Shown: positions 1-54,655 of the stretch, one piece after another
Layout of the letters: every line of letters begins with the position of its first letter
How positions within the stretch are numbered: position 1 is the first letter of the stretch
Program-made: the position numbers and the translations under genes
NCBI GenBank assembly: GCA_002753735.1
Contig: PEAN01000007.1
Location: forward strand, 1-63,882
Source: Magnetococcales bacterium DCbin4
GTDB lineage: Bacteria > Pseudomonadota > Magnetococcia > Magnetococcales > UBA8363
Direction: 5' to 3'
Length of the DNA: 63,882 bases
The notes under the pieces: model-generated
What the model saw: the letters and a program-made list of their open reading frames with translations, nothing else
Database searches by the model: none
Told to the model about the DNA's origin: nothing

Positions 1-48
1 TTCCCGCAAAAAGCACGCGGGAAGATCGCTTCGGGTGAAATGGCGCGT

Positions 49-127
49 AAAAAACAAAATCAAAATCAAAGTCAAAGTCAAAGTCCTGGGGGCAATCCCT
101 TAAGCCCCCTTTTTTCTTTCAATATTC
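49..127. repeat. Dispersed hexamer/hairpin repeat, copy A
   Basis: Copy A has a short tandem array of AAAATC/AAAGTC hexamers (about 53-86). A hairpin follows with stem GGGGGC/GCCCCC (about 89-110), then a run of T and the sequence CTTTCAATATT. The hairpin plus T run would act as an intrinsic terminator on the plus strand. The same modules recur at 41117-41245 (inverted) and 54340-54655 (two facing copies). Copy A ends immediately upstream of a recombinase that lacks its N-terminus. The element's biological class is unknown; calling it a MITE-like or REP-like repeat is inference. Confidence 0.8.
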
Positions 128-1096
128 CTATGCATATCAGTCAATTGCCTGCCATCCTCTCCAGTTAATGAATGTAACAAAGTAGAAATAAAAGCCATCA
201 AGGCAGATTCCAAACGCTTTGCCGATTGGTGCAGTGAACGGGGCGTTCCTTCTCTGCCTGCCGATCCGGACACCCTTCGAGCCTGCGTCGATTGGGGGGC
301 GGAAGAATTCAAACCGGCAACCGTCAAGCGGCATCTTGCTTCCATAGCCCACCTTCACCGGGCAGCTCGTCTTCTGGATCCCACCAAGGACAACAAAGTC
401 AGGTTGGCCGTCAAACGGATGAATCGGACCAAGGGCACGCGCCAGAAGCAGGCAAGGGGGTTGACCATGGTAGACGCTGCAATCATCAGGTCCAAGGTCG
501 AAGGAACGGTAAGAGATACCAGGGATGTGGCCATGATCTTGGTGGCTCGTGACATACTGGCTCGGTCAAGTGAACTTGTAGCCATGAACCGGGAAGATGT
601 CCAATTTGACGAAGATGGTGCTGGGACTGTTTTGATCCGCAAATCCAAGACAGACCAGGAAGGCATGGGGGCGCAACGGTGGATTTCTCCTGATACGGTG
701 CAGGCGTTGAAAAAATGGTTGCTGATCGCAGGAATTGACAAAGGGGCCATGTTTCAGGCGGTAACCAAGGGGGGTAACGTCAAGCGGGGAACCAGGCTTT
801 CCACCACTGACGTTTACCGATCAATCCAAAGGTTGGGTTCAATGGTCGGTCTTGATTTATCCGGTCATTCGTGCCGAGTGGGGATGGCCCAGGATTTGAC
901 CGACAACGGTGCCGAACTGGGGGCAATCATGCAGGCTGGCCGTTGGAAGAGTCCGACCATGCCCGCGCGCTATTCCGAACGCTTGGCAGCAGGTCGGGGG
1001 GCCGTGGCAGACCTTTACAAGAAAAAGGGGGTAGGGTTCAGGGAAGACAGCGAAGAGAGGAAGCCACTGCCCCCCGCACAGGACCGGCGACCGTAG
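104..1096 (+). pseudogene. 5'-truncated tyrosine recombinase/integrase
   Basis: The reading frame is open from a stop at 101-103 to 1096, but it has no ATG, GTG or TTG before a TTG at 404. Clear integrase similarity already begins near 180: a core-binding (SAM-like) domain including KRFADWCSERG and the stretch KPATVKRHLASIAHLHRAA. The catalytic domain looks intact, with the first Arg in ARSSELVAM, Lys in KSKTDQEG, the H-x-x-R in SGHSCRVG, Trp in AGRWKSP and the nucleophile Tyr in ARYSE. The usual first 20-30 residues are missing and the sequence there is repeat-derived. The gene is therefore probably a broken integrase, or one starting at a non-standard codon such as CTG at 149. It sits with BrnTA and a tRNA fragment, as in an integrated element. 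Confidence 0.75.
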
Positions 1097-41028: not shown

Positions 41029-41116
41029 TTTATTATGATCAAGAAAAAAAAGGGCTCTTCTGGCGTTAAATGCGGGTAAATACATCGTTTCACTGCAATA
41101 TAATGATTTTAAATAA

Positions 41117-41245
41117 ATATTGAAAGAAAAAAGGGGGCTTGAGGGATTGCCCCCGGGGTTTTGACTTTGACTTTGACTTTGACTTTGTTTTACCTTTTCG
41201 CACTGGAGATCTGGGGAACGAAGTTTCCCGGGCCTTTGTTTTTTT
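41117..41245. repeat. Dispersed hexamer/hairpin repeat, copy B
   Basis: In inverted order relative to copy A: ATTGAAAGAAAAAAGGGGGC, a hairpin GGGGGC/GCCCCC, then four TTTGAC hexamers. About 40 bases later comes a second hairpin GGGGAAC-GAA-GTTTCCC with a T run. The first hairpin terminates on the minus strand, the second on the plus strand. It lies between the diguanylate cyclase and folD. Confidence 0.8.
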
Positions 41246-54305: not shown

Positions 54306-54339
54306 AATTTGATGGCTCGGCTGTGCCGTCATAATAATT

Positions 54340-54655
54340 ATTGAAAAAAAAAAGGGGTCTGGGGGATTGCCCCCAGGGTGTTGGTTTTGATTTTGATTTT
54401 GATTTTGGTTTTACAGCCCCCACAGGGGGTGTGGGGGACGAATGCCCCAAGGTTTTGTTTTTTCTTTTCCCGAAGGGATTTATCCTGAAACCAAAACCAG
54501 AATCAAAACCAAAATCAAAACCAAAACCAGAATCAAAACCAAAACCTGGAGGACTTCGTCCCCCACACCCCCTGTGGGGGCTGTAAAACCAAAATCAAAA
54601 TCAACACCCTGGGGGCAATCCCCCAGACCCCTTTTTTCTTTCAATAATTCTATTG
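54340..54655. repeat. Dispersed repeat, copy C: two facing copies forming a large inverted repeat
   Basis: The left half runs from an A-rich run and hairpin with CTGGGGGATTGCCCCCAG through TTTTGATT-type hexamers to a GC-rich stretch ACAGCCCCCACAGGGGGTGT and GGGGGACGAA. The centre holds further AAAACC/AGAATC/AAAATC hexamers. The right half is the same in reverse, ending in CTGGGGGCAATCCCCCAG and a T run. Each outer hairpin with its T run terminates outward, so the element can end both the DUF779 transcript and the opposing NeuA-like transcript. Frames through it encode low-complexity FDFDF or KPKSKP peptides and are not real genes. Confidence 0.85.

Follow-up and report, generated by a model that had tools for sequence, protein, structure and literature searches.

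The three hairpin-bearing loci found in the window (the whole stretch of 63,882 nucleotides that was analysed) belong to a several-hundred-member family of short, hairpin-bearing intergenic repeats common to this bacterium and its relatives, and they are probably copies of a non-autonomous, REP/BIME-like short palindromic family in which a GGGGTC head replaces GTAG or CGTC. The repeated part, the A-unit, gave approximately 405 genome-wide matches to its pattern (up to 3 mismatches, 4.5-Mb genome) compared to 0 for a reversed-pattern control, and so copies are not restricted to the three loci. A profile HMM made from sampled copies found 127 A-units in 828 kb and 0 in the reversed sequence; this 828-kb sample, 18% of the genome, is the source of the HMM count and of the statistics on placement and pairing. 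A generic stem alone was at chance level in the window (22 matches with up to 3 mismatches, 22.3 expected).

In outline the A-unit is ATTGAAAG, an A-run, GGGGTCTGGGGG, a loop and CCCCCAGGGTTTTGA, or in a fuller reading ATTGAAAGAA-AAAAGGGG-TC-TGGGGG-ATTG-CCCCCA-GGGTTTTGAYTTTG, its parts being, in order, an A-run, the GGGGTC head, a GC hairpin and a TTTTGA (hexamer) tail. The hairpin has two forms: form 1, the commonest, is CTGGGGG-ATTG-CCCCCAG with a T-run lying 5 nt (ACCCC) off the stem, and form 2 is GGGGGC-(10 nt)-GCCCCC, folding at about -13 kcal/mol, with a T-run (T6) that abuts the stem. Genome-wide there are also 72 copies of a second hairpin, B (CCCCCACAGGGGGTNTGGGGGACGAAGTCCCCC). Rfam thresholds were reached by tRNAs only and the A family matches no known RNA family; a phage origin was rejected, there being no exact match in viral contigs, and searches of the open-access literature brought up no earlier account of such repeats in Magnetococcales. 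The parts of the three loci, in window coordinates, are as follows.

1-47, minus strand: remnant of inner module C (hairpin TTCCCGC...GCGGGAA at 1-23 plus CGCGCCATTTCACCCGAAGC), cut by the start of the contig and window; from the sequence
53-86, minus strand: locus 1 hexamer spacer (TTTGAC/TTTGAT units on the minus strand); hexamer search
74-125, minus strand: locus 1 A-unit, form 2 (GGGGGCTTAAGGGATTGCCCCC), with its T-run on the plus strand; nhmmer E = 2.4e-15
167-187, plus strand: outer module AATGAATGTRACAAAGTAGAA, found beside A-units in 9 of 10 sampled copies elsewhere
41030-41055, plus strand: decayed A-flank (ATGATCAAGAAAAAAAAGGG), left border of the locus 2 mosaic; from the sequence against the flank consensus, below the HMM threshold
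41116-41168, plus strand: locus 2 A-unit, form 2, stem GGGGGC 41133-41138 and GCCCCC 41149-41154; nhmmer E = 6.2e-16, fold -13.6 kcal/mol
41160-41189, plus strand: locus 2 hexamer spacer, TTTGAC four times then TTTG; sequence and hexamer search
41210-41232, plus strand: locus 2 decayed B hairpin TCTGGGGAACGAAGTTTCCCGGG, followed by a T-run and terminator-like on the plus strand; fold
54336-54388, plus strand: locus 3 A-unit, form 1 (CTGGGGG-ATTG-CCCCCAG); nhmmer E = 1.8e-16
54381-54411, plus strand: locus 3 hexamer spacer (TTTTGR/TTTGAT); hexamer search
54412-54455, plus strand: locus 3 B-unit CCCCCACAGGGGGTGTGGGGGACGAATGCCCCA; pattern match, 3 mismatches
54490-54546, minus strand: locus 3 central hexamer array; sequence and hexamer search
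54547-54580, minus strand: locus 3 inverted B-unit; pattern match with 1 mismatch, fold -22.2 kcal/mol, z = -2.04
54586-54606, minus strand: locus 3 hexamer spacer of the inverted arm; hexamer search
54597-54649, minus strand: locus 3 inverted A-unit, form 1, closing the palindromic mosaic; nhmmer E = 7.3e-17

The four A-units in this list were recovered by nhmmer with E values of 1e-15 to 1e-17 (reversed control 0), confirming the three loci with related hairpins that a first-pass annotation had described, and at every locus TTTGAY/TTTTGR hexamers accompany a GGGGG/CCCCC hairpin and an A- or T-run. The GGGGGC/GCCCCC hairpin which that annotation gave to all three loci holds as a GGGGG/CCCCC pairing in each but not as one sequence, locus 3 having form 1; its T-run is likewise present as an A- or T-run at each locus but stands away from the stem in form 1; and its GGGGAACGAAGTTTCCC-like second hairpin is found at locus 3 and, as a decayed B with an A-T pair in place of a G-C pair near the loop, at locus 2, but is absent from locus 1, where the contig end truncates the element and the inner module is C instead of B. 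The module C remnant folds at -14.6 kcal/mol, but with a z of only -0.78; module C matched at window position 20, and each of its 3 sampled copies lay near A-units. The stretch from 54340 to 54655, previously taken as one unit, is actually an inverted pair, A-hexamers-B...B'-hexamers-A', and locus 3 as a whole, taken as single-stranded DNA, forms a long and almost perfect hairpin (-127.8 kcal/mol, z = -19.7). The outer module AATGAATGTRACAAAGTAGAA also occurs at window position 2161 on the minus strand and may be a separate repeat acting as an outer border.

The wider sample shows the same mosaic construction, with 25 inverted pairs and 48 single units among 76 clusters. In most inverted pairs the two starts are 95-155 bp from each other; the pairs enclose interchangeable inner modules (the B double hairpin, a GGTTTCCATGC module or module C); the inner module AAAGGTTTCCATGC has 26 copies, all next to A-units, and several outer modules also recur at A-unit borders. 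The earlier proposal that hairpins are conserved while interiors vary is supported. The tail of the A-unit runs into TTTGAY/TTTTGR hexamers, which form a T-rich spacer between A and the inner module, but "hexamer-array repeat" is a poor definition of the family, as long arrays are uncommon, with 9 counted in 828 kb and 3 in its reversed control, and the majority of copies contain just one or two hexamers. The hexamers were rejected as an independent repeat because every array found adjoins an A-unit. Arm identity within inverted pairs was no higher than in shuffled pairs (P = 0.95 inner, 0.21 outer), and since the arms do not covary beyond chance the long hairpin itself carries no sign of selection; selection on a long-range hairpin was therefore rejected.

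The A-unit was present in all 8 genomes of the genus, at 16-405 copies each. Its core, GGGGTCTGGGGG-N3..10-CCCCCAG, was found in 26 of the order's 48 genomes, reaching 308 copies (all controls 0); among approximately 350 other genomes of a phylum sample only roughly a dozen had it, with 1-5 copies each. The order in question is probably Magnetococcales, as no second order of its class occurred in the phylum sample; FolD relatives gave no name for the organism, the best hits being mixed and only about 60% identical. Many copies in families f7, f11 and f13 retain both flanks, an A-run ahead of the hairpin and a ggttttga-like tail behind it. As the search pattern fixed the head and the core stem, covariation could be followed in the apical part only, using a list of loops compiled by hand from the listed order- and phylum-search matches: 26 of 30 distinct loops form further pairs compared to 14.4 expected, giving 43 extra pairs compared to 19.9 expected, a number reached in 0 of 5000 shuffles, and apical stems thus covary across the order. 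Other genomes of the order hold tandem arrays of different hairpins (L265, L266, L249 and L250), several of them after GGGGTC (GGGGTCCAGGGGCAACGCCCCTGG, GGGGTCTGGGGCGAAGCCCCAG), which suggests from sequence that this head may be common to several hairpin families; in the searches that gave GGGGTC-headed units in other families of the order, the head was fixed in the pattern.

The sampled A-units are strongly intergenic (119 of 127, at a coding density of 0.86; binomial p about 3e-90, with gene calls from a simple ORF scorer). Among spacers of at least 60 nt a unit was held by 22 of 59 convergent (37%), 45 of 232 co-directional (19%) and 7 of 83 divergent ones (8%), the convergent and divergent occupancies differing significantly (Fisher p = 4e-5), and the median distance from a unit to the upstream stop was 34 nt. 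This pattern of placement is that published for REPs (PMC3733652).

Comparison of nine syntenic sites with the congener G006 found no element there at 6 and a different or shorter hairpin at 3, window locus 2 being among the 3, and this presence and absence at orthologous sites shows that the family turns over, in keeping with the mobility or turnover suspected at first pass. At the GGDEF-folD site the element is absent in G001 and G005 too. An element lies between glyQ and glyS (L142:6201-6457, contig C139), genes which are nearly adjacent and element-free in G006, and elements occur twice inside a PqiA-PqiA-MlaD-ABC_trans_aux run that is tightly packed without them in G006; beyond the window, at position 66560 of contig C65, a called gene runs into an element which supplies its stop codon. 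Loss in the sister might explain some of the empty sites, and since no autonomous partner was recognised, movement is read from presence and absence. No target-site duplication was clear by eye in the flanks of inverted pairs. Although 33 of the order's 48 genomes have RAYT/Y1 genes, mobilisation by RAYT was rejected because none of 31 PF01797 loci examined in the order, this genome's own included, had an A-type hairpin within about 1.5 kb, in a neighbourhood search limited by fragmented assemblies. This genome has a single Y1/RAYT-like transposase match, a partial and weak one to PF01797 that looks frame-shifted by eye (L176:1368-1800, G000:C26); the sequence upstream of it resembles, by eye, a group II intron maturase.

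Bidirectional intrinsic terminators comprise an A-tract, a GC hairpin and a T-tract, all of which the A-unit has, and the units could be dispersed terminators of this kind, with A and B hairpins and T-tracts on both strands ending flanking transcription and being kept for it. The bias to 3' ends and convergent spacers, the short median distance from the upstream stop, the flagging of hairpins of loci 2 and 3 by a terminator scan, and the form 2 stem, which abuts T6 and has the canonical terminator shape on one strand, all fit. Against this, single co-directional units have no orientation bias (15 with the hairpin first in sense compared to 11 with the T-run in sense), the single units of the HMM set even leaning away from the T-run in sense (16 compared to 3); in form 1, the commonest, the T-run stands off the stem; the scan total was near the shuffled expectation (25 compared to 20.1); and the family, unlike such terminators, turns over between species and is inserted inside gene runs that are tightly packed in the sister. 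The terminator dispersal suggested by the first-pass annotation is thus weakly supported, its proposed comparison of orientation with genes, made on sequence, having found no bias toward the T-run in sense, and we consider it unlikely. Classical MITEs, derived from a DDE insertion sequence with the same terminal inverted repeats, would account for inverted ends of about 45-60 bp, unrelated interiors and typical MITE sizes, but 48 of 76 clusters are single units, the hairpin and not the tip is conserved, and target duplications were not clear by eye. One inverted pair was 567 bp apart, and two at 3.4 and 5.4 kb were taken as chance neighbours; apart from the latter two, none of the inverted pairs in the 828 kb was recognised as flanking a candidate transposase ORF. 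An autonomous parent was set aside on this 18% of the genome, and a MITE origin appears distinctly improbable.

A further reading is that the repeats are intrastrand-triplex (PIT/TM-type) motifs kept for DNA structure, with a G-run, 3-nt loop, G-run, loop and C-run. The A-unit (GGGG-TCT-GGGGG-loop-CCCCC) and B (CCCCC-ACA-GGGGG-TNT-GGGGG) follow the purine/pyrimidine block order of the class I/II motifs, with the 3-nt loop between G-runs, and the published motifs are also intergenic, some of them in inverted pairs, and are tied to local instability (Holder et al. 2015, PMC4666352). However, the ITxF criterion is three blocks of at least 6 triads with loops of 1-6 nt (PMC4666352), compared to which the window copies have only 4 (A) or 5 (B), the B consensus 7 with one mismatch, and a TMECO control 9. 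Form 2 yields no triads, the conserved flanks are broader than in the published motifs, and copies that differ at the stem base still have TC in front of the stem (GGGGTCCAGGGG), a feature not required by a triplex; this reading is very improbable.

The REP/BIME-like reading draws on likeness to two described groups. With REP, BIME and REPIN elements and their RAYT (Nunvar 2010, PMC2817692; Bertels & Rainey 2011, PMC3116915) the family shares a short GC palindrome, an unpaired 5' head, more than 100 copies per genome, intergenic location and frequent inverted doublets and mosaics. It differs in its head, which in A-units of this genome is GGGGTC or a close variant such as the GGGGGC of form 2 and never GTAG, where the group has GTAG (or GTGG), in its longer A-rich and T-rich flanks and hexamer spacer, in that no RAYT was found beside A repeats and in that pair arms do not covary. 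With the mostly alphaproteobacterial CGTC-tagged REPs (Di Nocera 2013, PMC3733652) it shares the absence of a known dedicated transposase, a prevalence of dimers, the convergent/unidirectional bias and a tag directly before the stem, but it has GGTC there rather than CGTC, TGTC or CCTC, stems of G/C homopolymer runs (T-A then G-C pairs) that do not begin with AT, and a tail GGGTTTTGA (GGG) in place of CCA. Its behaviour matches REP/BIME elements while the GTAG tag, the CGTC tag, flanking RAYT and, in the window copies, the triplex threshold are all lacking, and it is best called REP-like. Tentatively, and with rather less confidence, the GGGGTC head could mark REP-like palindromes of a third tagged superfamily, mobilised by machinery of their own other than RAYT, the hairpin being conserved across an order and the loops, tails and partner modules being exchanged to give spreading mosaics.

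For the REP-like family we propose, by analogy with IS200/RAYT on REPs, that copies may spread because the hairpin is recognised in trans, as single-stranded DNA, by some nuclease or transposase, and that they would persist mainly 3' of genes because insertions in promoters and coding sequence are purged. Any effect on mRNA 3' ends would be secondary and copy-dependent; since some elements are inserted within gene runs, it is doubtful that every copy terminates transcription strongly, and thus non-autonomous spread is ranked first and a transcript effect second. Perfect hairpins can also come from template switching, without selection, which counts against this explanation.

Many contig ends of this genome (C11, C29, C36, C47, C66, C101 and others) lie within about 150 bases of an A-unit, and the family may therefore cause assembly breaks, contributing to the fragmented assemblies of these genomes, with its copy number possibly underestimated. 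The A family adds to the REP-like repeats one whose lineage and head sequence are not described in the papers cited here, and the related species, with their 16-405 copies and empty sites, offer a set for testing what moves REPs that lack a RAYT.
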